A stretch of 23,230 bases of DNA, taken from IMG/VR virus record IMGVR_UViG_3300047471_000334, positions 1 to 23,230 of that record; one strand, given 5' to 3'. Both the position numbers and the translations under genes were made by a program. The notes beneath the pieces were generated by a model, which was not told where the DNA came from, searched no databases, and worked only from the letters and a program-made list of their open reading frames with translations. This stretch comes from a virus. Position 1 is the stretch's first letter. Each line of letters opens with the position of its first letter. Positions 4,920 to 21,231 of the stretch are shown here, piece by piece.

Positions 4920-5473
4920 CAGAGGGTCAGGTCGGCAAGCCGACCCAGCTTGAGGATGCGCGACTGCGTGTCGCGGAGACATTGGATGGCGACCGGCAAG
5001 CCCAGCTCGTCGCCGCGCTGGAAGGCCAGCTCGACGTTCTCCGCCCAGTCGGCGATGCCGGCATAGAGCAGCAGTGCCGGGTGGTCGATTGGGTTGTCGG
5101 GTACGTAGAGCAGCACCTTGCGCCGAGTGTACCCGGAATAGCCTGGACCCTGACCGGCGGGTACGTCGAGCATGGCGTGCCCTGAAACCGCACCCTTCGA
5201 GTAGTTGAAGGGAAAGAGCTGCTGCACCGCATCGTCGTCGAAGCCGCGAAGGATGCACCCGGCGACGTAGTGCTGGTCGTCTTCGAGCACGTCAGTCGCT
5301 TCGCCGAGCCCTTCGGCGTAGACGCGGAAGCGGGTGCTGAGCGACTTCAAGACCATATTCCGCGACTTGCCGAGCGGGATGCCGCCGTACGGGAAGGCGG
5401 CACCGAGGTCGGTGGGCGAGCAGACCAGCCGGCCCGGCGCGCGGATGATGCGGTTAACGTTGCCGGCGCTCAT
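4919..5473 (-). CDS. Tail structural protein, possible tube-type (184 aa)
   Basis: ATG at 5473 overlaps the TGA of the G-like gene (ATGA, 5470-5473) and has a good GGAG 5 nt upstream (5479-5482). The frame continues upstream to 6133, but that is a shadow of neighbouring genes. The protein begins MSAGNVNRIIRAPGRLVCSP. Its second half carries regular patterns: YSKGAVSGHAML, a Gly-rich turn (GQGPGYSGYTRRKVLLY), DNPIDHPALLLY, and the ending SRILKLGRLADLTL. The alternation of strands and turns, the lack of hydrophobic membrane segments and the place after the G-like gene suggest a virion component such as a tail tube or neck protein. I cannot place it in a named family from sequence alone. Confidence 0.82.
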   Translation of the reverse strand: MSAGNVNRIIRAPGRLVCSPTDLGAAFPYGGIPLGKSRNMVLKSLSTRFRVYAEGLGEATDVLEDDQHYVAGCILRGFDDDAVQQLFPFNYSKGAVSGHAMLDVPAGQGPGYSGYTRRKVLLYVPDNPIDHPALLLYAGIADWAENVELAFQRGDELGLPVAIQCLRDTQSRILKLGRLADLTL

Positions 5474-6057
5474 TTGATCTCCGCGACTTCGATGCCGACG
5501 GTGTAGCGGATCGCCTTGCGGGTGTCCTCGGTGATGCCGAGGAACGGCCGCGCCGGCACGTCGTGGGTCAGCGTCTTGTTCAGGAAGCGGCGGTTCAGCA
5601 ACCAACCAAGTTGGCGCTTCAGCAGCGGCGACTGTCGGCTGAGCCACTGCCACAACGCCGAGCGCACGGCCGGCGTGATCTTCGCACTCTCGACTTTGCC
5701 GCCCTTCTGGTGCACCGCGGCATACTCGACGTTCGTGCCGACTTCGACCGCCGTGCGGCCGAGCACCCGGAAGGCGATCGACTGCGCAAGGCGCCCGGTG
5801 TCGCGCAGCGCCGGTCGCGGCTCGAAGCGGCGGGCTGGGGGAGCTGCCTTGCCCGCGGCGAAGTCGGCCAGGATGCCGAAGACGTTCGGCACCGCGCGCG
5901 CCGGCCAGGGCTTGCCGCCGAAGGCTTGCTCTTTGAAGGCGCGCTGGCTCTCGGCGACGATCAGGACGCCGATCTGCTTCAGCGCGCGTTCCGGGGCTTC
6001 CAGTGCCTGGGCGATCCGCGTGAGCTTCGCGCCGCGATCGAAGACGATGCGGACCAC
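5470..6057 (-). CDS. Mu G-like virion morphogenesis / tail completion protein (195 aa, GTG start)
   Basis: This matches the phage virion morphogenesis family (Mu gpG, S-type tail completion) in order and motif. A helix with RALKQIGVLIVAESQRAF (about 24-41) is followed by GGKPWPAR (47-54), then PALRDTGRLAQSI (82-94), EVGTNVEYAAVHQKGG (105-120) and a C-terminal PARPFLGITEDTRKAI (168-183). Family members complete the head-tail joint. The GTG start at 6057 lies three bases after the upstream TGA, with GGAGAG 7 nt upstream (6065-6070). A basic insert (about 121-165, with RRFLNKTL) separates the two conserved halves. In Mu the G gene follows F directly; here it lies well downstream of the major capsid gene, at the start of the tail block. 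Confidence 0.9.
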   Translation of the reverse strand: MVRIVFDRGAKLTRIAQALEAPERALKQIGVLIVAESQRAFKEQAFGGKPWPARAVPNVFGILADFAAGKAAPPARRFEPRPALRDTGRLAQSIAFRVLGRTAVEVGTNVEYAAVHQKGGKVESAKITPAVRSALWQWLSRQSPLLKRQLGWLLNRRFLNKTLTHDVPARPFLGITEDTRKAIRYTVGIEVAEIK

Positions 6058-6060
6058 GGG

Positions 6061-8310
6061 TCAGCTCTCCACATCGTCGAAAGGCACCACCATCGGTGGG
6101 AAGTTGACCGGCAGGCTGCCCGGGTCGGACCACGGCAGAATCGGTCCGCCTTGCAGCGTGCCTTCGCGCTTGCTCTTGGTGTTGCCGCTGATGGCCGGCA
6201 CGCCATGCGCGCGCGGACCGGTCTTGCGGACCTTGCCGATCAGACCATCGTCACCGAAGACGGTCTCCCACTTGACCTGTTCGATCTGCGTCGCGGAGCC
6301 GCCGCGACGCCACAGCACGGCGATGACTGCCTGCGTGCCGACCGCGACGTGCGTCGTGCTGAGGATGTCGAATGGGGTTTGCGCGTGGATCTCCCATAGG
6401 TCGATGACGTGCTGAGCGGCAGACGTGCCCGCGTCGTCGTTGATGGACGTTTCGCTGCGCGCCGTGATGTTCGTCAGGGTGACGAGCCCGGCGGCGCTGT
6501 AGGCGTCTCGCGTCGCTTGCCACAGCAGCGCGGCGTCCGTCAGCGCGACGCCGACAAGCTGCCCGTCAAGCCGGATGTTGTAGGGGAACGAGTTCTGGTC
6601 GACGTAGGTCGACCAGTTGTTCGGCGTGAGCTGGACGCCGCCGATCGTGATATTGGTAAACGTCAGATCGTGCGGCGTGTTCGTCGAGTCGAGGCCGATG
6701 ATGCTCGACCGCTTGCCCTGCGTGCCGGTGACGCTCAGCGACAGGAAATTGAGATTCAGCGCTTGCCCCTTGCTAGAACCTGCGCCGCCGGACCCCGGCG
6801 GGGAGTTCGGCCACGGGTATGCGCCGTTTCGGATCTCGAACAGCTCGCAGAGAATGTTGCCTTCGACGATGAGATTCGTGACGGCGCGGTTCGCGACGGT
6901 CCACGTTTCCTGACCGACATCGCCGGCCAGTAGCACGCCGATGATCGGGCACGTCGCGATCGGGTTGGCCCACGATGACTGGTCCTTGAGCGAGATGGAA
7001 GCCGCCCAACAGGCATCGTAGACGTGGAAGGCGCCGGCAGGGAACGGTGGCGTTTGGTTCGGCCGGTAGCTGAGCCGGAAGACGCTCTGCACGAGGTGCA
7101 GGAAGGCGACGTTCGCGACCGAAATCGAGCCGCCGTTGAATTGAGTCTGGCAGTGATCGTCCGCGTTGACGCTCAGGCATCGTTGCCACACCGCGTTGCC
7201 GGTGTGGTAGTCGAGCGAAAGTCCGACGCCGCCCATGCCGCCGAACCAGTCAGACAGCAGCATCGCATCGGTTAGTGTGCTGTCGCCGGCCTGGATGAAG
7301 TAGTAGCACGGGTCGACGATCGTCAGCCCGGACACGCTGTTGCTGAACGTCTGGCCTTCCGTCGGGGGCCCGCCCGGCGCCGCGCCGAGGATCATCGAGT
7401 AGAGGATGCCTTGCGAGAACGGCAGCCCTTGCGTCACCGAGGCGCCGCCGCCGACGCCTTGGCCCGACAGGTTGCCGTAGCCCACGCCTACCGACCACCC
7501 GGACTTGCTGCGGCCGTCGAAAGTGCCGATCGTGTAGCAGCCCGGCGAGAAGAAGGCCGTGACGTTGTTGCCGAGCGTGAAACGCTTGTTCGCGCCGGGG
7601 ATGTTCTGCACGCCCGGCTGAAAAACGAGCGTCGAGCCGTCGGCGACCGACGATTGCGTGCCATCGAAGGTGATCGCGCCGCCGGCGGGTGCAATGCCGG
7701 AAGGCCCGACCGCAAGGTTGATCCGGTTCTTCCAGTCGCCGTTGATGACGACGATGGCCTGGGCAAAGACCGGCATGAGAATCAGGAAGTTCGTGCCGTT
7801 GATCGCCGCGACGAGATTCAGGGATGCCGGGAAGACCTGGAAGCTGGTGACCGGACCGCTGAGCAGGTGCACATTGAAGATGACCGACGAGTCGGCGCCG
7901 ACCTTGCACCAGTTCTCCGTCACCACGTCGCCCGGGTTCCACTTCTGCGTCTTGATCTGCGAAGTCTGCGAGCGAGCAAAGACCACGGCCGCGTTCGCGC
8001 CGCCGCCGATGTCGCCCGTCAGGGTGTAGCTGGTGCTGGTCTGCGCCGTCGGCCGCACAACGAAGGTGTCACCGGGTGTCGGCGAAGCGGGGAAGCCGCC
8101 GCCGACCATTGTCGCAGTCGTCAGGGTGTTCGACGAAACGACGGCCGACTGGTTGCGCAGTGCGACCGTAGCCGTGCCGGCGTCGAAGGTGATCGTCGCG
8201 CCCTGCCAGCAGTTCGGGGAGCTGCCGACGGTCGTCTGCAGCAGCGTTGCCGTGCTGACGCCACCGGCGATGAGGCCGGCTTGCCCGTTCCATGCTTCGA
8301 GAACGGCCAT
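6061..8310 (-). CDS. Beta-helix (GH49/dextranase-like) protein with C-terminal neck-like domain (749 aa)
   Basis: ATG at 8310, three bases after the upstream stop; no clear Shine-Dalgarno, so probably coupled. Residues 15-88 form a small beta module (ITFDAGTATVALRN at 40-53) that recurs in the large fibre gene. Residues about 120-585 look like a right-handed beta-helix of the GH49 dextranase/isopullulanase type: AFFSPGCYTIGTFDG (252-266), VWQRCLSVNADDH (374-386) with paired Asp384/Asp385, then a VFRLSYRP strand (410-417) and repeated strand turns. GH49 enzymes use three Asp; I can place the DD pair but not convincingly the third, so activity is uncertain. Residues about 588-749 differ: helical start (TDAALLWQATRDAY), THVAVGTQAVIAVLWRRGG (653-671), VFGDDGLIGKVRKTGPRA (684-701), and a Pro-rich end. 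This part sits where Mu has gp36-type neck genes and may be a fused connector. No in-frame start codon lies at the junction. Confidence 0.8.
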   Translation of the reverse strand: MAVLEAWNGQAGLIAGGVSTATLLQTTVGSSPNCWQGATITFDAGTATVALRNQSAVVSSNTLTTATMVGGGFPASPTPGDTFVVRPTAQTSTSYTLTGDIGGGANAAVVFARSQTSQIKTQKWNPGDVVTENWCKVGADSSVIFNVHLLSGPVTSFQVFPASLNLVAAINGTNFLILMPVFAQAIVVINGDWKNRINLAVGPSGIAPAGGAITFDGTQSSVADGSTLVFQPGVQNIPGANKRFTLGNNVTAFFSPGCYTIGTFDGRSKSGWSVGVGYGNLSGQGVGGGASVTQGLPFSQGILYSMILGAAPGGPPTEGQTFSNSVSGLTIVDPCYYFIQAGDSTLTDAMLLSDWFGGMGGVGLSLDYHTGNAVWQRCLSVNADDHCQTQFNGGSISVANVAFLHLVQSVFRLSYRPNQTPPFPAGAFHVYDACWAASISLKDQSSWANPIATCPIIGVLLAGDVGQETWTVANRAVTNLIVEGNILCELFEIRNGAYPWPNSPPGSGGAGSSKGQALNLNFLSLSVTGTQGKRSSIIGLDSTNTPHDLTFTNITIGGVQLTPNNWSTYVDQNSFPYNIRLDGQLVGVALTDAALLWQATRDAYSAAGLVTLTNITARSETSINDDAGTSAAQHVIDLWEIHAQTPFDILSTTHVAVGTQAVIAVLWRRGGSATQIEQVKWETVFGDDGLIGKVRKTGPRAHGVPAISGNTKSKREGTLQGGPILPWSDPGSLPVNFPPMVVPFDDVES

Positions 8311-8313
8311 GGT

Positions 8314-9708
8314 CTATGGGTCGGCGTAGGTTGGCGAGCCGGAACTGGGCAGGTAGCCGAAGCCGGCCAGGAACAGGTAGTACTGCAGTTTCCCGGTCGC
8401 CGGTGCGCCGCCGGTGTCCGTGAAGATCAGCGTGTCGTCGAGCTTCCAGTTGACGAGGCCGGTAGCCGACTTCTGGCGCAGGATCCAGTAGGTACCGTCG
8501 ATCTGCATCCACGGGCACAAGATGCAGTCGTCAACGAGCAGGTAGCCGGTCGAGGCCGACATGGCCCATTCGATCTCGATCGTCAGCGCGTTCGCGTCGA
8601 AGTTCTTCGGCCAGTGGTTCTGGCCAATGGGGACGATGATCTCGGCCCAGTTCGCGCCGAGCGACGCTATCGAAGTCGTGACGGTCTGCGAGCCGAAGCG
8701 CACGACGACGTTGCCGCCGACGGCGGTTCCGATCGTCTTGTTGACCATTACACGCAGAAAGTACGGCGTGTTCGGGTCGAAGTTCTTGATGCGCATCTGC
8801 GACGTCGACTGCGTCACCGTGACCGTGAGACTGCCGCTGGACGTGATCTTGAGTGAACCGCTGATCTGCGAGCCCGGGTAGTCGCGGTAGAAGTTCGTCG
8901 TGTCCTGCGAAACCTGAGCGCCGTTGTTCTTCTCGGTCCAGTTCGAAAACTTCGGCGTGTTCGAGGCGTTGTAGTCGCTGAAGGAACTGTTGTTGAGCAG
9001 CGAGCCGCCGTCGCCGGTGCCCGCGTGCTTGCTCAGGAACGTCGTGCGCGACGCCTCGCCGCTGCCGTGTGCATTGGTCGTGCGCAGCAGGGAATCGAAG
9101 GACGCCGCCGCGCCGATGAACTGGAAGCGTTCGGCTTCCTTGTCGGCGCCGGTGTTCTGGTCCTGGATGCATCGGAAGGTCTTCTTCTCGACGTTGCAGG
9201 CTTCCAGGTTGAAGTTGTTCTGGTCGACCGTGAGCCGACTCATGGAGCCGTTGCCGACGATCGTGCCGACGCCGGCCACCGTGTTCGAGTTACCGGTGGT
9301 GCCCGTGGTGTCGAAGGTGATCGTCCGCGACTTGATCGTGAAGCCCTTCTGCACGTACCACTCGTACAGCGCGCGGAAGGCGTCGGCGAACGACCGGAAG
9401 CCCGACCCCGTGCCCATGCCGGCCGTCGCGTCGGCGGCCAGGATGCGCATGTACTCGTAGACCACCGGCGACAGCACGCCGGCGACGCCGTTCGGCGTGA
9501 GCATCGACGACAGCGCGGCGCGCATGTTGTCGGTGAAGTTGCTCATGGCGACCGGGAGGAAGTCGCCGATGAGGATGGTTTCGAGCGCGTTGAACTTGCC
9601 GGCCGAGGCGGCCATCGTGCCGTCGGCGAAGTTGCGCGTCGTCTCCAGCACATCAACCGCCGCCTTCCACTGGCTGACGATCTGCGCTTCGGTCGGGGTT
9701 CCAGCCAT
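8314..9708 (-). CDS. Virion protein with CBM4/9-like jelly-roll domain (464 aa)
   Basis: ATG at 9708 has a strong GGAGGG 8 nt upstream (9717-9722). Residues 1-120 are mainly helical (IVSQWKAAVDVLETTR; FADAFRALYEWYVQKG). Residues 125-235 form a middle region of unknown type (SMSRLTVDQNNFNLEACNVE, FQFIGAAASFDSLLRT). Residues about 236-400 read like a carbohydrate-binding module of the CBM4/9 jelly-roll type: it opens SLLNNSSFSD, has FSNWTEKNNG, a Gly/Ser strand GSLKITSSGSLTVTVTQS, TPYFLRVMVNK, a NWAEIIVPIG strand and closes with STGYLLVDDCIL, the characteristic last strand. The remaining 65 residues are beta-rich. I infer a structural protein that displays a glycan-binding domain at the neck or head. 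It forms a pair with the beta-helix gene that follows three bases later. Confidence 0.85.
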   Translation of the reverse strand: MAGTPTEAQIVSQWKAAVDVLETTRNFADGTMAASAGKFNALETILIGDFLPVAMSNFTDNMRAALSSMLTPNGVAGVLSPVVYEYMRILAADATAGMGTGSGFRSFADAFRALYEWYVQKGFTIKSRTITFDTTGTTGNSNTVAGVGTIVGNGSMSRLTVDQNNFNLEACNVEKKTFRCIQDQNTGADKEAERFQFIGAAASFDSLLRTTNAHGSGEASRTTFLSKHAGTGDGGSLLNNSSFSDYNASNTPKFSNWTEKNNGAQVSQDTTNFYRDYPGSQISGSLKITSSGSLTVTVTQSTSQMRIKNFDPNTPYFLRVMVNKTIGTAVGGNVVVRFGSQTVTTSIASLGANWAEIIVPIGQNHWPKNFDANALTIEIEWAMSASTGYLLVDDCILCPWMQIDGTYWILRQKSATGLVNWKLDDTLIFTDTGGAPATGKLQYYLFLAGFGYLPSSGSPTYADP

Positions 9709-10452: not shown

Positions 10453-11463
10453 TTAGGCGATCTTGATGGCCGAGAACGGCAGGGCGACGCCGGCGCCGAC
10501 GCGCTTGTCCCACTGCACGTACTCCTGGCCGGTGTTGCGCGTGGTGTCGCTGTTGTTGTCGCCGATCAGCGAGCTGAACTCCATCAGCGGCTGGCGGTCG
10601 AGCATGAACAGCGGCTTCTTCGGCGCGCCCTTGAGGATGACGAACCAAGTCGTCGAGGTCGTGATGCGCTGCGTGCCCCACAACGTGCAGTCGCGGCTGG
10701 CGTCCTGCACGATGTTCGTCGGCGTGACGCCAAGGGCGAGCGTGCCGGTCATCACGCCGGCGGTGGTGAGGCCGAGGCCCTGGCGGCGCTGCAGGAAAGC
10801 CTGCTCGAACTGCAGGGTGGCGGCGGCCGGGTAGATGACCACGAAGCCCTGCTGGATGACTTCGTCACTCCACAGGGGCTGGCCCTTGCCGTCCTGCATC
10901 AGCCGGAACTGGGCGATGGCGGCGTAGAAGTCCGTGAGGATCGCCGACACCGAGGTGGTGCCCGACGTCGACAGCAGGTTGCCGTTGGTGACGCCGAAGC
11001 GCGCGGCACCGCCGGCGGTCGTCGCGAACATCGCGGCGCCGTCCGGGGCGTTCTGCGTCGCCGGCAGCGTGTTGGTCGTCGCGAGCAGCAGGTCGAAGGC
11101 CATTCGCTCAGGCAGCAGCGCGGCCGACATGCCGGTCTGGCGCGCCGAGTCGTAGAGCGATGACGTCTGATCGTCCGCGCGGTCGTCGCGATGCCACGAG
11201 ATGCGCCGGCCGAAGTTGTAGATGGGCACCGTGAACGTCACGGAGCGGTTCGCGTCTTCGGGGATCGGATCGCCGCGGCGCCAGAAGGCGACGTGCGGGG
11301 CCGCTTCGAAGTAGGCGAACTCGTGCTGGCGGTTCCAGGCCGTCAACCCGTCCATGATGAGCGAAAGGCGACCGTCCGCCTGCCGGTTCTGGACGGCGAG
11401 GTACGTGTCGGCGAACTCGGTCCGCAGACCGTTCGCGAGGACTGAACTGGCAACAACATCCAT
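10453..11463 (-). CDS. Major capsid protein, Mu gpT-like (336 aa)
   Basis: The 336-residue length, position and motifs fit the Mu-like major head subunit gpT. An N-terminal helical region (GLRTEFADTYLAV) is followed by a stretch with FTVPIYNFGRRISWHRDDRAD (about 76-96), a region LPERMAFDLLLATTNTLP, the strand IQQGFVVIYPAAATLQFEQA, and a C-terminus with GQEYVQWDKRVGAGVALPFS, close to the usual gpT ending. It would form the shell after scaffold-guided assembly. ATG at 11463; the Shine-Dalgarno is weak (GCGAGA about 8 nt upstream). The terminator-like hairpin that follows suggests it is expressed more than later genes. Neighbours are the decoration-type gene upstream and neck genes downstream. 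Confidence 0.88.
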   Translation of the reverse strand: MDVVASSVLANGLRTEFADTYLAVQNRQADGRLSLIMDGLTAWNRQHEFAYFEAAPHVAFWRRGDPIPEDANRSVTFTVPIYNFGRRISWHRDDRADDQTSSLYDSARQTGMSAALLPERMAFDLLLATTNTLPATQNAPDGAAMFATTAGGAARFGVTNGNLLSTSGTTSVSAILTDFYAAIAQFRLMQDGKGQPLWSDEVIQQGFVVIYPAAATLQFEQAFLQRRQGLGLTTAGVMTGTLALGVTPTNIVQDASRDCTLWGTQRITTSTTWFVILKGAPKKPLFMLDRQPLMEFSSLIGDNNSDTTRNTGQEYVQWDKRVGAGVALPFSAIKIA

Positions 11464-14151: not shown

Positions 14152-15075
14152 CTAGTGCCTGAATCCGGGATCCGGGTAGGCGCCCGCCGGCACCGCGCTG
14201 TTGATGACGACCCCGTTGCGCAGCCGGCCCTGCTGCGTCAGCTCGTAGGCCGTGACGTGCGAGACTTGACAGCGGCAGTTGTAGCCGAGTGGGGGCGCCA
14301 ACTGGGCCCAGGCCGGGTGCTCGACGGCCAGCACCATGCCGTCCGCGGCACCGTGGTTGTGCCGGGTGTCGGAATCGCCCACGGCGTCGAAGCGGAAGGC
14401 CGGCACCGCCGTTCGGATGTCCTGGTCTTGCGCCTGCTTGAAGCGGCCGGCGGTGACCGCCGTGTTGACGTTCGTGCGGAAGGCCATGCGGGCGTACGAC
14501 TCGGACCACGCCGACGTCCGGGCCGCCACGACGTTCGCGCGCATGGCTAGCCTGCGCCCGGCTTCCGTCTCGCCGAGCCCTTCCTTGAAGGCCCGCGCGA
14601 TGTACGCCTGGGCTTCCTCGGCCACCGTCTGCTCGACGGCGCGCACGAAGGCCATGACGTGCCCGGCTTCGTAGGCCCGGGCGATGCCCTGCGCCGTGCG
14701 CTCGGCGGCCGGCCGCACGACGATCGGCACCCGGGTGACGATGTCTTCCAGCGCTTCGGCGAAGGTGACGCGCGGCACGATGGACTGCACCGGCGCAGCG
14801 GCGAAGCGCAGCAGCTCGCCGACTTGATGCGCGAAGCGGCCGTGCACCGGCTCGGCGAGCTCCTGGGCCGCCGCCTGCAGCGTCATTGCCGCGCCGAGCA
14901 TCGCCGATAGGCCCATCGTTTCCGCCATCGTCTTCTGCAGCGCCGCGCGAGCGTCCGCGGCTGCCGGGGCGTTGCTGGTGATGAGCGCAACGAGCAGGTC
15001 GTGCACCGCATAGAAGTAGGGCTTCGCGTAGCGCCCGGTCACGTCTTCCAGGAACTTCGTCGCGTCGAGGTTCAT
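14152..15075 (-). CDS. Minor head protein, Mu F / SPP1 gp7-like (307 aa)
   Basis: ATG at 15075 overlaps the portal stop as ATGA (15072-15075); the longer frame to 15360 is a shadow of the portal gene. The protein is mainly helical to about residue 180. It then has the family block: ARTSAWSESYARMAFRTNVN (185-204), AGRFKQAQDQDIRTAVPAFR (209-228), a DxDTRHNHGAADG segment (234-246), PAWAQLAPPLGYNCRC (254-269) ending in the conserved Asn-Cys-Arg-Cys. Family members bind the portal and help in head assembly or DNA packaging. C-terminal PDPGFRH is a common ending pattern in this group. The order portal then F-like is that of Mu. Confidence 0.92.
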   Translation of the reverse strand: MNLDATKFLEDVTGRYAKPYFYAVHDLLVALITSNAPAAADARAALQKTMAETMGLSAMLGAAMTLQAAAQELAEPVHGRFAHQVGELLRFAAAPVQSIVPRVTFAEALEDIVTRVPIVVRPAAERTAQGIARAYEAGHVMAFVRAVEQTVAEEAQAYIARAFKEGLGETEAGRRLAMRANVVAARTSAWSESYARMAFRTNVNTAVTAGRFKQAQDQDIRTAVPAFRFDAVGDSDTRHNHGAADGMVLAVEHPAWAQLAPPLGYNCRCQVSHVTAYELTQQGRLRNGVVINSAVPAGAYPDPGFRH

Positions 15076-16415
15076 CGACGGAACGGGAACAGGCTGCCGC
15101 CGCCAACGCCGGCCGGATCCATCCCGGGCGTCGGCGCTGCGGCGCCCGGAATCACGTCTTCGCCTTCTTCCGGCTTGCGGAAGCCTGTCTGGTCGAGAAC
15201 GTCGTCCTTGCTCAAGTCGACGCCCATGCCGTGCAGCACGTTCGCGACGTCGGCGCGCATCTTCGGGTCTTGCACCGACTCCTGCTGCAGCGAGAACTTC
15301 GGCTGTTCCTCGGTGATCTGTAGCTCGCCTATGTTGATCCAGTTGTAGTGCCACAGACACCCGATCAACGATCGCGTGAGCGTCTCTTCGAGCGCTTCGC
15401 GGTCGCTCTTGATGAGGGTTTCCGTGCTGTCGGCCTGCGTCTCACTGAGCGCGTAGCTGCCGCCTTCGCTCGCTTGCGTCGGCAGGTTGGCGGCCAAGAT
15501 CAGCGTTGCGATCGTGGCGCGCAGTTCGTCGCGCATCGTCTTCAGCAGTTGCCAGCCTTCGCCGTTCATGTTGACGACTTCGACTTGATCCGCTGAGTCG
15601 TAGACGAGCACGTTTCGCGCGCGCAGGTCGGTCAGCACGTCGCGCCACGCGGTGATTAGCTCCGTGTTCGGCTTGCCGCTGTTCGCGTCGCGGACGCCGT
15701 CGACCTTCGCCGTCAGGATGCCCTGCGCGAAGCGTTCGACCGCCTGTAGCGATTCCTGGAAGACGTGCTCTTTCGCGTACCACCACCAGCCCAGCGCCTC
15801 GCGGAGCCCGCGGCCATGGCCCAGCGATCCCTGGTCATCTTGGTAGACGTGCCGGATCGTGCGCAGTGCGTCCTGCGCCGACTCGACTTCGAAGACCTGC
15901 TTGCCGAGGTTCCACCGCTCCCAGTGCGCTTCGATCCGGTTCAGGCGCTGGTCGAACTTCGGCACGATGCGGAAATAGCGCTTGTCCATGTCCTCAAGAC
16001 GGACAGGGACGAGCCAAGTGCGCGGCTTGCCGTCGCCGAGCTTCAGCACCTTCGCTTCGAGATGGATGCGCGCGAAGCGCGAGCCGCTGAAGAACGCCCG
16101 CGCGAGATTCACGCGCGCGTCGAAAAAGCGCTCGATGTTGTCCAGCAGCTCGCTCGCCACCGCCACGGCCACCGGTGCCCGCGGCGACTTCTCCACCTTC
16201 GGCAGCACGGACCACTGCTGCCCCGCAATCATCATGCGGCGCTTCGACACCGCCGCGGCGATGTCGGCATCGCGCAGCATCTTTTCTTCGAGTTCCGGGT
16301 CGCGCAGCAGCCACAGCGACGGGTCGTAGATCTGAACGCCGTTCCGCCACGCGGTCGACAGCGCCCGGACGTAGAGCTGCTGCGATTGGTTGCGTGCGCG
16401 CAGTTCCGTGGTCAT
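15072..16415 (-). CDS. Portal protein, DUF935 / Mu gp29-like (447 aa)
   Basis: The protein matches the DUF935 portal family. The start has LSTAWRNGVQIYDPSLWLLR (19-38) and RDADIAAAVSKRRMMIAGQQ (48-67), the typical two-helix opening. The clip/wing region includes GRGLREALGWWWYAKEHVFQ (201-220) and ERFAQGILTAKV (227-238). The stem and crown are followed by ATLILAANLPTQASEGGSYA (303-322), a strong family signature, and a Pro/Gly-rich C-terminus (VIPGAAAPTPGMDPAG). It forms the ring through which DNA enters. ATG at 16415 lies 16 bases after the fibre stop, with GTAGG 10 nt upstream. In Mu the terminase genes precede it; here they are not in the adjacent position. Confidence 0.93.
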   Translation of the reverse strand: MTTELRARNQSQQLYVRALSTAWRNGVQIYDPSLWLLRDPELEEKMLRDADIAAAVSKRRMMIAGQQWSVLPKVEKSPRAPVAVAVASELLDNIERFFDARVNLARAFFSGSRFARIHLEAKVLKLGDGKPRTWLVPVRLEDMDKRYFRIVPKFDQRLNRIEAHWERWNLGKQVFEVESAQDALRTIRHVYQDDQGSLGHGRGLREALGWWWYAKEHVFQESLQAVERFAQGILTAKVDGVRDANSGKPNTELITAWRDVLTDLRARNVLVYDSADQVEVVNMNGEGWQLLKTMRDELRATIATLILAANLPTQASEGGSYALSETQADSTETLIKSDREALEETLTRSLIGCLWHYNWINIGELQITEEQPKFSLQQESVQDPKMRADVANVLHGMGVDLSKDDVLDQTGFRKPEEGEDVIPGAAAPTPGMDPAGVGGGSLFPFRR

Positions 16416-16431
16416 GGACGGGAAACCTACT

Positions 16432-19400
16432 CTAGATTGCGACCTTTGTCAGCGAGGCAACGATGCGTTGCCCGTCCGTGACGCTGGCGTCGGGCGTCTC
16501 GTTGATCGAATCCGTGGTGATGCGTTCCAGGTCGTCGACATTCATCAGGAAGACCTGCAGGTCGCTGGCGCGCAGCTTCTGCAGGGCCGTGCGGATGTTC
16601 GCGGCTTCGGTGAAGAGTGCCGATGCCGTCGCGAGTTGCGGCTGCCGGAAGATGATCGGCAGCGGCGTCCCGCTGGTGCGCGTCGAGAAGTCCGCGCGCA
16701 GGTCGGCGACGAACTGCGCGAGCTGGTTGGCGAAGGCGGTGCCGCCATTGGTCACGGTCTGATCGATCGTGCCGAGATCCACGAAGATCCCCTTCAGGTC
16801 CACCTGCTTGCCCAGGCTGAGGTTCGCCCAGCGGCAGAACGCCTGCCACTGCAGTTTGAGCGCAGGGTAGTTCTCGGCGTACGCCTTCGACCACCGGCCG
16901 CCGGCCGCCGGCGTGCTCGGGTAGTTGTCCGGCGTGTAGGCGAGCAGCGCCGAGGCCAGCCCGCTGTTGTCGACGGCCCGCTTCATCAGCAGCGGCAGCA
17001 TCGAGCATTCGGGGCCGGCGACATTGCTGAAGGTGCCGCTAGTGTTCGGGTTGCCGGCGCTGACGTCGTAGGCGACGCCTTCGCCGGTGCGCGCATCCCA
17101 GATGCCTTGCCGCGCATCGCGCGCGCCGTCGGTCAGCGTCGGCGAGGCGAGGTCGGTCAAGTAGGCATTGGTGATCGGTCCTTTGAAGATCGAATCGCCG
17201 AGCATGATGTACGCCGGCACTGCGCCGGCGTAGTCGGCCGCGTTCTCGTCGGCAAGCAGCAGGTCGTAGGCTTGCCGAACCGCGCGGGCCATCGGACCCC
17301 AGTAGACGTCGGCTTGATAAAACGCCTTGTTCTCGCTCGGCGTGTAGAGCACCGAGACGTCGAGACAGAGCGGCTGCCCTTCCATAGACACGCAGCGAAC
17401 GTTGCCGATCGCATCCGAGGCAGCGACGCTGCGGTGCGCGAGGTTCGCGAACGTAGTCGCGCTCGGCACGGCCACGTTGTTGATCTCAGCAGCGTGGTTG
17501 ACGATGACCACTTTCAGATTCGGATTGCCGAGCACCGTGCGGAAATAGGCGATCGTCTCGGTCACCTTCTGTTGGTAGCTCGCTTGGTGCGCCGGGTTCG
17601 CGATCCAGTCGTTGACGTCGCGCTGGCTGTTGTCGAGCACCAGCAGATCCCAGAACAGCGCATTGCCGTTCGCGAGCGCGGACCATGCCGTATTCATCGC
17701 GGCAAGCTGCGCGGCGAAGGCGACCTTGCCGCTGCCCGTCGCCACGTCGAACGCCGAGAAGGTCGGCGCCGTCTGGAAGTATTTCGCGACCTGGAAATAG
17801 GGCGCTTGCGGGTAGGTGTGCTCAAGCAGCTCGCGGATCAACCCGCCGTCGAGCCCGATGCCGGCGCCGAAGTTGCCCCATGACGAGCCGCCGCGCTTGC
17901 TGAGCTGGTTCGCTTGCGTCTCGGTGAGCGTGAGCCAACCGGCGATGGGGTGGTAGTCGGTCCATGCGCCCTTGGCCGCGGTGCCGGTGTTGCCGCCGAG
18001 GAATAGCTTCTGGTTGGCCGTCGGCGTCACCGACCATGCGCTGCCGACTTGGAGCGTGTCCGCCGTGTTGCCAATGACAACCTTGCGGTCCGAGAAGCCG
18101 AGCGCGTAGCCGGGCACGAAGCTGTTCTCGATCGTGACCGTGTAGCCGATCCACTGGCCGGCGGACCAGCCGGGCGATCCGGTCACCTGAACGTGCGTCG
18201 CATCGGTGCCGGCAGGGTTGATCCCGAACAGCGCCGTCCCGTTCAGGCCGTCGAACCACGGATACCAACCGAGCGCCGCCGCCGTCGGCGCGCCGCTGCT
18301 CGGGTTGTCCGGCACCACGCGCATGATCTTGTCGGCGTAGCTCGAACGCAGCTCGCTCGCGCCGGCCGCGGAAACGGCGGTGTCGATGCAGTTGACCTGC
18401 TTCGTGGAACCGCCGTTGGTCATGTGGTCGCCGACGATCAGGATGCCGGGGACTTGCAGGTTCGGCGGCGGCGGCGTGACGATGACCGTCGTGGTGCCCG
18501 TCGTCGGAGCCGACCAGTCACTGTTGCCCGCGGCGTTGTGCGCCCGAATCTTGATGTAGTAGACGGTGTTCGAGTTGAGCCCGGTCAGCGTGCACGACAC
18601 CGCGTCGACTCCGCCGACGTTGCTGACGATCGAGTAGGTGACGCCGCCGTCGATGCTGACGCCGGCATCGAAGCCCGTCTCGTTGTAGCTCGTCGCGTCG
18701 GTCCAAGAGACGTCGAGCGTCGTGTTCGTCGGGTTCGCCGTCGCGCCGATCGTTGGTGCGTCGGGCGGCACGAGCGCGGTCGCGAACGCGGCGACCGCGT
18801 TGACCGCGCCGGCGCGCATCCAGTCGACGGCATACTTTGCCTGCCAGATCGGGTTCCAGTTGGTGACCCACTGGCCTTCGGCCTGCGTCTCGTAGGCGGC
18901 GCGCGTCGCCGAGATGCCGCGATAGGTGCAGTAGTCCGGCAGCCGGCGCTTCGCGGTCGGCGCGAGCGGCGAGCCCGGGTAGGTCGAACCACTGTCCGCG
19001 GACTTCGTGTTCCACGCGGCATTCGTCTGGTCGGCGCCGTTGTAGTGGAACAGGTGGCCGTCGCCGGCCGCGCCGAAGATGTTGTTCGCGCCGGTGCTCT
19101 GCCCACCGCCGGGGAGCCAATCCAGGTTGTCGCGGACGTTGAGGTAGAGCGAGCCGTTGCCGGTCGAAAACAGGTTGGTGACGTTGCGGCGGTCGGTCCA
19201 GAGGCCCGTGTAGTTCGCCGGCCGACTGATGTCGAGGAAGCCGTTCGAGCCCTGCACGTAGTTGTCAACGATCGTCGCCGCCGCCGCGGTGAAGGTGTTC
19301 GTAAGCAGGATGTGCAGCGAGCCGCCCGCGTAGTAGGACATCGGCTCCGAGGCGATCGCATCGCCATAGAGCAGCATCCGCTGGAACGTGACGTTGTTGT

Positions 19401-21231
19401 TGTTGTGGCCGCCGCCGCCGCCATCGTTCTGGTCCCAGCCGATGTAGCCAATCTGTCCGCCGGAGAACCCGTCGATGATCTCGCGCCGTCCATCCTGGGC
19501 GCCGTCTTGCACGACGATCGCCTGCGTGGACAGCACCGAGTTGTCGACACTGCTGCGCTGCACGCCCTCCATGCTGATGCCGATGGAGCACATGGCCCAT
19601 AGGCTGTTCTGGATCGTGCCGCCGCTGCGCAGCATCACGTCGCCTTCGCTGAAGTAGCAGTTGTCGATCAGTGCGTTGGTGCACGATCGCTGGATATAGA
19701 GCGCATGGCGGAAGATGGACGGCGTGTTCCAACTGATCTGGTAGGCAGTGCCGTTCGATGGCTGCGCGCCGCCGTAGCCGTTGTTCCACGCCTCCTGGCC
19801 ATTGAGCGTGGTCTTGCCGTTCGACGAGATGAGGCGCTGGAATCCGTTGACCTGCACCATGCGGCCGCTCGGACTTCCGCTACACGAAATGACATCGTTG
19901 TCCGAAGGCGCCACCGACAGCGCGGCAAAACTTATCTGCGCCGTCGTGCTGCCCGTGATCTTGCGCTGTACGTTACGCAGCGCGACCGTCGGCGTGTTCT
20001 GATCGAAGGTGATCCAGTAGTTGGTGAGGCCAACCGCCGGCAGCGTTCCCGCCGCGAAGTTGATCGTCGTCGTCGTGTGACCCCCGGTCGCCGCGGTGAT
20101 CGTCGGCCCGGGGACCCACTTCTGGCTTGCATCGGTCAGAAACAGCGTATTGACGCCGCCGGCTGCGTAGGTCGGCGAAGCGACCTGCGAGCTGTGCACG
20201 TCTTCGATGGTCGCGCCGGCGCAGCGTGGGAACCACGAGTCCTGGATCGTCAGGTTGTCGATCGCGTGGAACAGGACGCCCGACGGGTTCTGCGGACCGC
20301 CGTTGCCAAACTGGCCGCTGACTCCGTAGTCGTAGCAGTCGCCGATCCAGGTGCGCCGCACGGTGAGGCCGTTGATGCGCGCGGCTTCCGTCGAGCCGCC
20401 GTTGTTGCCGGTCATCACGAGGCCGAACGAGGCATAGCGGATGTGGCAACCTTCGACGATGACGTTGATCGCCCCGCCAGTTCCTGAACTGTGCTGCGCC
20501 TGCAGCGCGATGCCGTAGAGCTGCCCCGTCGTGTTGTTGGTGAAGAAGTAGTTGCGGCGCGCGGTGATGTCCCACGTCACGTCGAGGTGCTGCCACAGCA
20601 GCCGCGGGCGGTTGTCCGTGTTGCCCACGTTGAACGGCGTGTTGCTGTCAGTCGCGCCGGTGAACTTCGGCCGGCCCGCGGTGAAGTCGCCGTAGGCCGT
20701 GAAGGCCATTTCGTCCGCGTTGATCGCGCCGGCACCGTTCGGGTGCCAGTCCTGCTGCTGCGACGTGAAGGTGTCGCCGCACTTATAGAGGATGTGGTCG
20801 CCAGGGTTGAAGATGCCGCTGACTTCGCCGCTCCACTTCGTCTTTGGCGCGACGACGGATAGCCCGCTGTTGCCGCCGGCGCCCGACGAGCTGACGAAGA
20901 TGCGCTTGCGCGCCGATTGCAGCACCGGCACCGTCCAGCCGTTCAGGTCGGTGAACTGCAACGCTGCCGCATAGGCCGGACGGAATGCGGCGACCCACAC
21001 GGAATCGGAGTGGTCCTTGACCCACAAGTAGCGCGGATGCGTGCTGTCGTTCGTGAACGTGAAGCGGTGCGAGTCGGCGCTACCCGTGACCGTGCCCAGC
21101 GGCGTGTAGCCGGAGAGGCCGGCTGCGTCGTCCGACCAGCGCGCATCCCAGTCGGTCGCTCCCTGGCGGTTGAGGAAGACTTCGACGAAGCCGTTGCCGG
21201 AGAGGGCATCAACTTGGGTTGGTGTGGCCAC
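16432..21231 (-). CDS. Large fibre/tailspike: beta-helix, FN3 and two SGNH-like domains (1599 aa)
   Basis: GTG at 21231 has AAGGAGG (21241-21247) 9 nt upstream and overlaps the preceding gene by 23 bases. Domains in order: a beta-sandwich (about 1-100) that may anchor the fibre; a right-handed beta-helix (about 110-800) that opens FVSSSGAGGNSGLSVVAPKT and GDHILYKCGDTFTS as pectate-lyase-like helices do; an FN3 domain (823-917, LDVSWTDATSYNETGFDAG and a YYIKIRAHNAAGNS strand); a Pro hinge (920-923); and two SGNH/sialate-esterase-like domains (930-1330 and 1338-1599). The first has Gly-Asp-His in place of the catalytic Gly-Asp-Ser (934-936). The second has GDS (1345-1347), GPECSM (1406-1411) and LGTID (1486-1490), but its C-terminal block (PDASVTDGQR, 1580-1589) lacks the expected His. 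It probably binds or modifies host surface glycan. Residues 360-450 and 1010-1080 carry a repeated beta module also found in the 749-residue protein. Confidence 0.92.
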   Translation of the reverse strand: MATPTQVDALSGNGFVEVFLNRQGATDWDARWSDDAAGLSGYTPLGTVTGSADSHRFTFTNDSTHPRYLWVKDHSDSVWVAAFRPAYAAALQFTDLNGWTVPVLQSARKRIFVSSSGAGGNSGLSVVAPKTKWSGEVSGIFNPGDHILYKCGDTFTSQQQDWHPNGAGAINADEMAFTAYGDFTAGRPKFTGATDSNTPFNVGNTDNRPRLLWQHLDVTWDITARRNYFFTNNTTGQLYGIALQAQHSSGTGGAINVIVEGCHIRYASFGLVMTGNNGGSTEAARINGLTVRRTWIGDCYDYGVSGQFGNGGPQNPSGVLFHAIDNLTIQDSWFPRCAGATIEDVHSSQVASPTYAAGGVNTLFLTDASQKWVPGPTITAATGGHTTTTINFAAGTLPAVGLTNYWITFDQNTPTVALRNVQRKITGSTTAQISFAALSVAPSDNDVISCSGSPSGRMVQVNGFQRLISSNGKTTLNGQEAWNNGYGGAQPSNGTAYQISWNTPSIFRHALYIQRSCTNALIDNCYFSEGDVMLRSGGTIQNSLWAMCSIGISMEGVQRSSVDNSVLSTQAIVVQDGAQDGRREIIDGFSGGQIGYIGWDQNDGGGGGHNNNNVTFQRMLLYGDAIASEPMSYYAGGSLHILLTNTFTAAAATIVDNYVQGSNGFLDISRPANYTGLWTDRRNVTNLFSTGNGSLYLNVRDNLDWLPGGGQSTGANNIFGAAGDGHLFHYNGADQTNAAWNTKSADSGSTYPGSPLAPTAKRRLPDYCTYRGISATRAAYETQAEGQWVTNWNPIWQAKYAVDWMRAGAVNAVAAFATALVPPDAPTIGATANPTNTTLDVSWTDATSYNETGFDAGVSIDGGVTYSIVSNVGGVDAVSCTLTGLNSNTVYYIKIRAHNAAGNSDWSAPTTGTTTVIVTPPPPNLQVPGILIVGDHMTNGGSTKQVNCIDTAVSAAGASELRSSYADKIMRVVPDNPSSGAPTAAALGWYPWFDGLNGTALFGINPAGTDATHVQVTGSPGWSAGQWIGYTVTIENSFVPGYALGFSDRKVVIGNTADTLQVGSAWSVTPTANQKLFLGGNTGTAAKGAWTDYHPIAGWLTLTETQANQLSKRGGSSWGNFGAGIGLDGGLIRELLEHTYPQAPYFQVAKYFQTAPTFSAFDVATGSGKVAFAAQLAAMNTAWSALANGNALFWDLLVLDNSQRDVNDWIANPAHQASYQQKVTETIAYFRTVLGNPNLKVVIVNHAAEINNVAVPSATTFANLAHRSVAASDAIGNVRCVSMEGQPLCLDVSVLYTPSENKAFYQADVYWGPMARAVRQAYDLLLADENAADYAGAVPAYIMLGDSIFKGPITNAYLTDLASPTLTDGARDARQGIWDARTGEGVAYDVSAGNPNTSGTFSNVAGPECSMLPLLMKRAVDNSGLASALLAYTPDNYPSTPAAGGRWSKAYAENYPALKLQWQAFCRWANLSLGKQVDLKGIFVDLGTIDQTVTNGGTAFANQLAQFVADLRADFSTRTSGTPLPIIFRQPQLATASALFTEAANIRTALQKLRASDLQVFLMNVDDLERITTDSINETPDASVTDGQRIVASLTKVAI

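Follow-up and report, generated by a model that had tools for sequence, protein, structure and literature searches.

A β-helix on the N-terminus of a probable head-tail adaptor in a Mu-like phage

The 749-residue protein described here is quite probably a head-tail adaptor subunit of a phage, with a glycan-recognising β-helix built onto its N-terminus. It is encoded in a 23,230-base virus record of IMG/VR, analysed over its whole length and hereafter called the window. The window carries a Mu-like structural operon on its minus strand, with genes for a portal, a MuF protein, a protease/scaffold region, a capsid protein and a tail-completion protein (Table 1).

The β-helix and a helical domain are joined in one translated protein. 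The reading frame starts with an ATG at position 8310 and ends with a stop codon at 6063-6061 on the minus strand. The earlier note on this DNA had described a single 749-residue frame, which we found at exactly 6061-8310 together with all of the peptides quoted for it, i.e. PGCYTIGTFDG (residues 256-266), VNADDH (381-386), THVAVGTQAVIAVLWRRGG (653-671) and VRKTGPRA (694-701); its coordinates thus stand, and its strand was corrected to minus. As had also been noted, the junction is free of in-frame start codons: neither ATG, GTG nor TTG occurs from 40 codons before it to 25 codons after it. The full frame is kept in the four contigs L002-L005 at 69-70% identity, and dN/dS values between the window and its relatives of ~0.42-0.44 for residues 1-585 and 0.35-0.37 for residues 590-749 indicate purifying selection on both parts. 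Because of these three observations, we conclude that a single protein is made, and they rule out readthrough between two genes as well as an overlooked stop codon. The junction itself, earlier placed at about residue 588, lies close by but is better set at 590/591, since the stand-alone adaptors described below start with M(A/S)xxx(D/E)LW, which aligns to LTDAALLW of the window protein.

Table 1 Features of the window, and modules found on the adaptor N-terminus in the window and in related loci (L numbers).
Feature	Locus	Position	Strand	Remark
Whole fusion gene, 749 aa	window	6061..8310	-	intact in relatives L002-L005
Residues 1-90, N-terminal extension	window	8041..8310	-	not in L039/L104/L106 helices; pLDDT about 25-37
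Residues ~91-205, strand-rich N-terminal domain	window	7696..8040	-	common to L039/L104/L106; low-confidence model
Residues ~207-590, predicted right-handed parallel β-helix, clan GH-N-like	window	6541..7692	-	Foldseek, VIA-align
Gly360, where L039/L104/L106/L120 have the Asp of N-x-D-G-F (Trp355+5)	window	7231..7233	-	
Asp384-Asp385, the invariant ADD pair of the β-helix	window	7156..7161	-	alignment with relatives
Residues 591-749, predicted head-tail adaptor domain: four-helix bundle and extended C-terminal tail	window	6061..6540	-	synteny, fold, profile
Trp727, C-terminal tail, near-invariant in adaptor family	window	6130..6132	-	candidate portal contact, compare JBD30 gp41 tail Trp (PMC11445458)
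Phage_tail_S / Neck1 tail-completion protein	window	5470..6057	-	directly downstream of adaptor in nearly all relatives
464-aa protein, outside the fusion	window	8314..9708	-	no Pfam match; directly upstream of adaptor gene in nearly all relatives
Major capsid protein (Mu gpT-like)	window	10453..11463	-	context
Portal (Portal_Mu)	window	15072..16415	-	context
1599-aa protein, fn3 and C-terminal SASA/SGNH module	window	16432-21231	-	directly upstream of portal
SGNH/SASA module, C-terminus of 1599-aa protein	window	16444..17223	-	related to adaptor-fused module in L022/L028
Helix A fusion	window, L002, L005			
Helix B (divergent β-helix) fusion	L039/L057/L082			E 3.6e-70 to window protein, shared adaptor counted
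GDSL/SGNH esterase fusion	L022/L023/L094/L099 and L026/L028/L090/L092			Pfam SASA, E 2.5e-8
SASA-type esterase fusion	L018/L079			E 2.5e-5, just under Pfam cut-off
Fusion of a strand-rich module, ~355 residues	L074	4927-5988		no match in Pfam/PHROGs

The C-terminal 159 residues belong to a family of adaptors that usually stand alone in the same gene position. Searching with the capsid protein retrieved 47 related loci; a profile of the C-terminal domain and a further scan then yielded 34 distinct adaptor members. Eight of these distinct sequences are fused and 26 stand alone, the stand-alone adaptors of the same phage family being 153-166 residues long. Where gene order was read, the adaptor is flanked by a homolog of the 464-aa gene and by a Phage_tail_S gene, and the portal, MuF, capsid and 202-aa genes lie upstream of it in conserved order. 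The earlier note had suggested a search for homologs of the C-terminal part that stand alone behind the capsid gene; such homologs thus make up most of the family, with synteny kept, and an invariable connection of this part to a β-helix, named there as the contrary outcome, is not seen. As a separate observation, the adaptor and the 464-aa gene are swapped in L038 (4424-6281) compared to the other relatives read.

An AlphaFold2 model of the adaptor domain with a pLDDT of 66 predicts four helices followed by a tail. Its six best matches in the PDB are all phage connectors, a uniform set with modest Z-scores (8rka, JBD30, 7.0; 8zdj, 6.2; 9l01, 5.6; 9jlf, 5.0; 5vgt, 4.8; 3jvo, 4.3), followed by an unrelated entry at 3.7. 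We also compared the adaptor by hhalign with a DUF1320 profile that comprises JBD30 gp41, D108/Mu gp36 and six other DUF1320 proteins. This comparison yielded a score of 39.2 (P 7.6e-6, probability 84%), with controls of at most 17.5 for 100 column shuffles and 8.5 for the reversed profile. Comparisons with shallow alignments were uninformative (P 0.048 for JBD30 gp41 alone and P 0.55 for DnaT_2), and deeper alignments were then used. Pfam and PHROGs gave no match for any of 20 adaptor members; judging from these searches, the models in curated libraries fall short of this adaptor branch, which is reached by direct profile comparison. Since fold and profile comparison agree, and the gene lies between those for the capsid and the tail-completion protein, the earlier proposal of a Mu gp36-like connector is supported. 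Like Mu gp36 and JBD30 gp41, the window family would thus combine a helical bundle with an extended C-terminal tail, and it occupies the same operon region after the capsid gene. The Mu gp36/JBD30 gp41 members that we retrieved stand alone, measure about 125-160 residues and have a bare N-terminus, whereas in the window family the C-terminal tail is longer and contains Trp, and neither Pfam nor PHROGs detects the family. The database record of JBD30 (NC_020198; L124, 509-982) calls gp42 the portal, whereas the structure paper assigns the portal to gp32 and makes gp42 the stopper (PMC11445458).

A domain that is missed by the sequence libraries and modelled at moderate confidence might not be an adaptor at all, but instead serve a neck fibre or tailspike as its C-terminal domain for assembly or chaperoning, with other proteins bringing it to the virion. 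However, this domain is found alone in most members of its family, sits in the adaptor slot of the operon and matches adaptors in both fold and profile. Moreover, the only other candidates between the capsid and tail-completion genes are the 202-aa and 464-aa proteins. We therefore regard a chaperone role as very improbable.

For the β-helix, the fold class is the safe statement, and assignment to a family is unsafe because the full-length model of the fusion is poor (mean pLDDT 49.6). Foldseek placed GH49 isopullulanases on ranks 1-2 (E 1.5e-3 and 2.0e-3); GH28 polygalacturonases come among the ranks that follow, and GH49 dextranases take ranks 8-9. Structural comparison of residues 205-604 by VIA-align gave Z-scores of 13.5-15.8 to β-helix enzymes and phage tailspikes. 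The predicted helix resembles two glycan-related β-helix proteins of phages, the phi29 neck appendage gp12 (Z 14.0) and the HK620 tailspike (Z 14.6). Both are separate appendage proteins, the former located at the neck region, whereas the window helix is fused to a predicted connector ring protein. Pfam and PHROGs returned no helix family for the window protein, and Pfam Glyco_hydro_49 had no match at E<=1 for the window, L039 or L104 proteins. Furthermore, phmmer and hmmsearch found no sequence match between the helix and the solved GH49 enzymes. A PF03718 search across 294 genomes of the L104 phylum also gave no match. The GH49-like β-helix of the earlier note thus holds at the level of the fold, as seen in a low-confidence model, but is not borne out by the Pfam model of this family. 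With GH49 isopullulanases and dextranases the window protein would share a right-handed β-helix after a strand-rich domain, the best Foldseek ranks and an invariant Asp pair, and the model of the strand-rich domain is consistent with the β-sandwich that precedes the GH49 helix. It differs from them in lacking a Pfam GH49 match, in the Gly that replaces the first Asp in its own branch, and in its place on a virion protein.

GH28 and GH49 together form clan GH-N and have their catalytic machinery in common (PMC7939477). In L039, L104, L106 and L120, the motif N-x-D-G-F lies five residues past a conserved Trp and is followed by the Asp pair. Sequence alignment shows Trp355 and Asp384-Asp385 at the same spacing in the window, L002 and L005, with Gly at position 360. 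Because one of the catalytic Asp positions is thus a Gly, glycan binding or an altered chemistry seems likelier for the window-branch helix than standard hydrolysis. This branch has probably lost standard catalysis, and Asp367 could in principle serve as a replacement catalytic residue. The term depolymerase, used in the earlier note, is accordingly doubtful for the window protein, which keeps the Asp pair but not the first Asp of the clan motif.

The β-helix is one of several apparently exchangeable modules on this adaptor family (Table 1), and in every fusion found the module is N-terminal to the adaptor. The esterase module of L022 retains the GDSL, GTND and DxxH blocks, and that of L018 has GQSN, QGExD and DxxH motifs. 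Since the SGNH motifs are kept, the esterase-bearing versions are likely to be active deacetylases. The module of L074 is possibly a new neck module. A tree of the 34 adaptors needs five label changes, and at least two switches between the stand-alone and the fused state follow from the starred branches alone; the SGNH fusions are nested in a clade of stand-alone adaptors. Comparison of L021, which lacks a module, with L022, which has one, shows the two loci to be collinear on both sides, with the insertion starting exactly at the adaptor start codon. Four apparent further fusions (L024, L033, L040 and L052) were rejected and counted as stand-alone, as their extensions arise from reading the upstream gene out of frame. 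A recent exchange of modules between L010 and L013 was considered as well; their helix identity (0.89-0.94) is only mildly below that of the flanks and is not decisive.

β-helices also act as rigid structural elements, and the window's branch is without the first catalytic Asp. The N-terminal modules might thus mainly form a collar or decoration that sets the size or stability of the neck and has no role with glycans. It is, however, esterases with intact motifs that share this site in L022 and L018, and the common denominator of the modules is carbohydrate chemistry, so that we judge a purely structural role unlikely. Polysaccharide recognition or modification would be their common theme, and the proposal of a glycan ligand for the window helix is based on its modelled fold and on the esterases at the same site in relatives.

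The esterase type also occurs at a second place. The SGNH module of the L022 adaptor is similar to the C-terminus of the 1599-aa protein of the window (residues 1337-1596, E about 1e-27). In L021, L024, L030 and L033, all of which have stand-alone adaptors, a homolog of the 1599-aa protein is encoded upstream of the portal. In L022 this homolog is absent, and a putative terminase-like gene, recognised by eye from its sequence, precedes the portal. Thus, in the small sample of phages that could be read at both places, the esterase type is found either at the portal-side protein or on the adaptor, never on both.

A related helix also sits on a second adaptor without sequence relationship to the first, in another phage lineage. 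In five viral contigs (L106-L110) and in L104, a helix with 78-83% identity to the L039 helix is joined to a different C-terminal domain. The L104 domain is recognised by both PHROG_477, 'head-tail adaptor Ad1' (E 4.4e-33), and Pfam DnaT_2 (E 1.7e-29), and its gene is followed by one with a match to the PHROG head closure Hc1. The genes upstream encode, among others, a MuF protein and a DUF4055 portal. The window adaptor shows no sequence relationship to DnaT_2/Ad1 (hhalign P 0.3-0.55), so the same kind of N-terminal β-helix is combined here with an adaptor domain unrelated by sequence, and the other window genes have no match in the L104 and L106-L110 loci at the threshold used. L104 (JADCJE010000143.1) is a contig in a Phycisphaerales metagenome-assembled genome, with an adaptor domain 99% identical to that of the viral contigs; it is a possible host lead for this phage lineage or possibly a binning artefact. 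The same assembly holds a third phage-like locus (contig C33 of G001; L120/L123, 444-2660), in which a related helix precedes a 133-residue C-terminal domain; two genes further on lies a possible tail terminator, matched weakly (E 0.008). Identification of this C-terminal domain as a head-closure protein was rejected, since the libraries gave no match for it and it does not resemble the Hc1 protein of L104; only its position would speak for such a role. Among cultured phages, tblastn of the fusion, the adaptor, the major capsid protein, the L039 and L104 helices and the SGNH module gave nothing significant in 50,697 phage records.

How might such a protein be arranged in the virion? The JBD30 adaptor forms a dodecamer, the C-terminal tail of which is wedged in the grooves between portal clip domains, where its tryptophans stack on the portal (PMC11445458). 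By analogy, twelve adaptor domains of the window protein would form a ring under the portal, and their C-terminal tails, including Trp727, would be wedged between the portal clip domains and buried. With the C-terminus buried, only the N-terminus would be free to take up an additional domain, in agreement with all fusions found. Up to twelve β-helices would then be carried on the outside of the neck ring, because a 590-residue domain cannot fit into the DNA channel. There, they may hold the virion near a polysaccharide of the host or matrix, or modify this polysaccharide, in addition to the receptor system at the tail tip.

Phage structural proteins are often processed, and both halves of the fusion do occur separately, as adaptors are usually stand-alone and the SGNH module is also found on the protein upstream of the portal. 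The fusion might therefore be cleaved during assembly, leaving the adaptor to work alone and the helix to act as a free enzyme or at another site of the virion. We consider such cleavage improbable: no shared cleavage-like motif is evident at the junctions (VGVALTDAALLW, EPAAAAELW, EPTYAELW and QPSVTANAELLW), the linkers in L018 and L022 are short, and a free enzyme would not need an in-frame fusion with a virion ring.

The function proposed for the adaptor-borne helix is already of a known kind, because the neck passage structures (NPS) of lactococcal phages carry comparable modules. In 936 phages these are separate collar proteins with C-terminal carbohydrate-binding modules (CBMs), β-helices or esterase-like modules (PMC6669499), and domain exchange has been documented for them (PMC10684548). 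The NPS of 936 and P335 phages thus resemble the window family as neck proteins with exchangeable carbohydrate modules that are swapped in close relatives. Their β-helices, i.e. groups D/E, are similar to pectin and alginate enzymes and occur next to CBMs and esterase-like CBM forms (PMC6669499; PMC10684548). However, in the NPS the collar is a protein of its own, which TP901-1 can do without; its N-terminal part is a BppU-like ring and its modules are C-terminal. The window protein departs from this layout in that its module is N-terminal and fused to the predicted head-tail adaptor itself. In a partial literature search, we found no description of a module fused directly to the adaptor, of its N-terminal placement, of the same arrangement in a second adaptor family or of the range of modules reported here.

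To our knowledge, adaptors are among the most geometrically constrained parts of the virion, and the known ones are small. Our data suggest that the adaptor N-terminus nevertheless tolerates modules of ~280-640 residues, repeatedly and in unrelated adaptor families. We lean towards the view that the adaptor ring is a general, repeatedly used platform for polysaccharide-active modules, and that unrelated adaptor families, perhaps together with a different neck protein (L120), independently acquired N-terminal modules, with the esterase type placed portal-side or on the adaptor but not both in the phages readable at both places. The ring would be a natural display site, and the constraint on the C-terminus would account for the N-terminal polarity of the fusions. 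Host-surface enzymes would thereby be placed where annotation pipelines do not look, and the prediction is that up to twelve catalytic or binding modules ring the neck of such phages.
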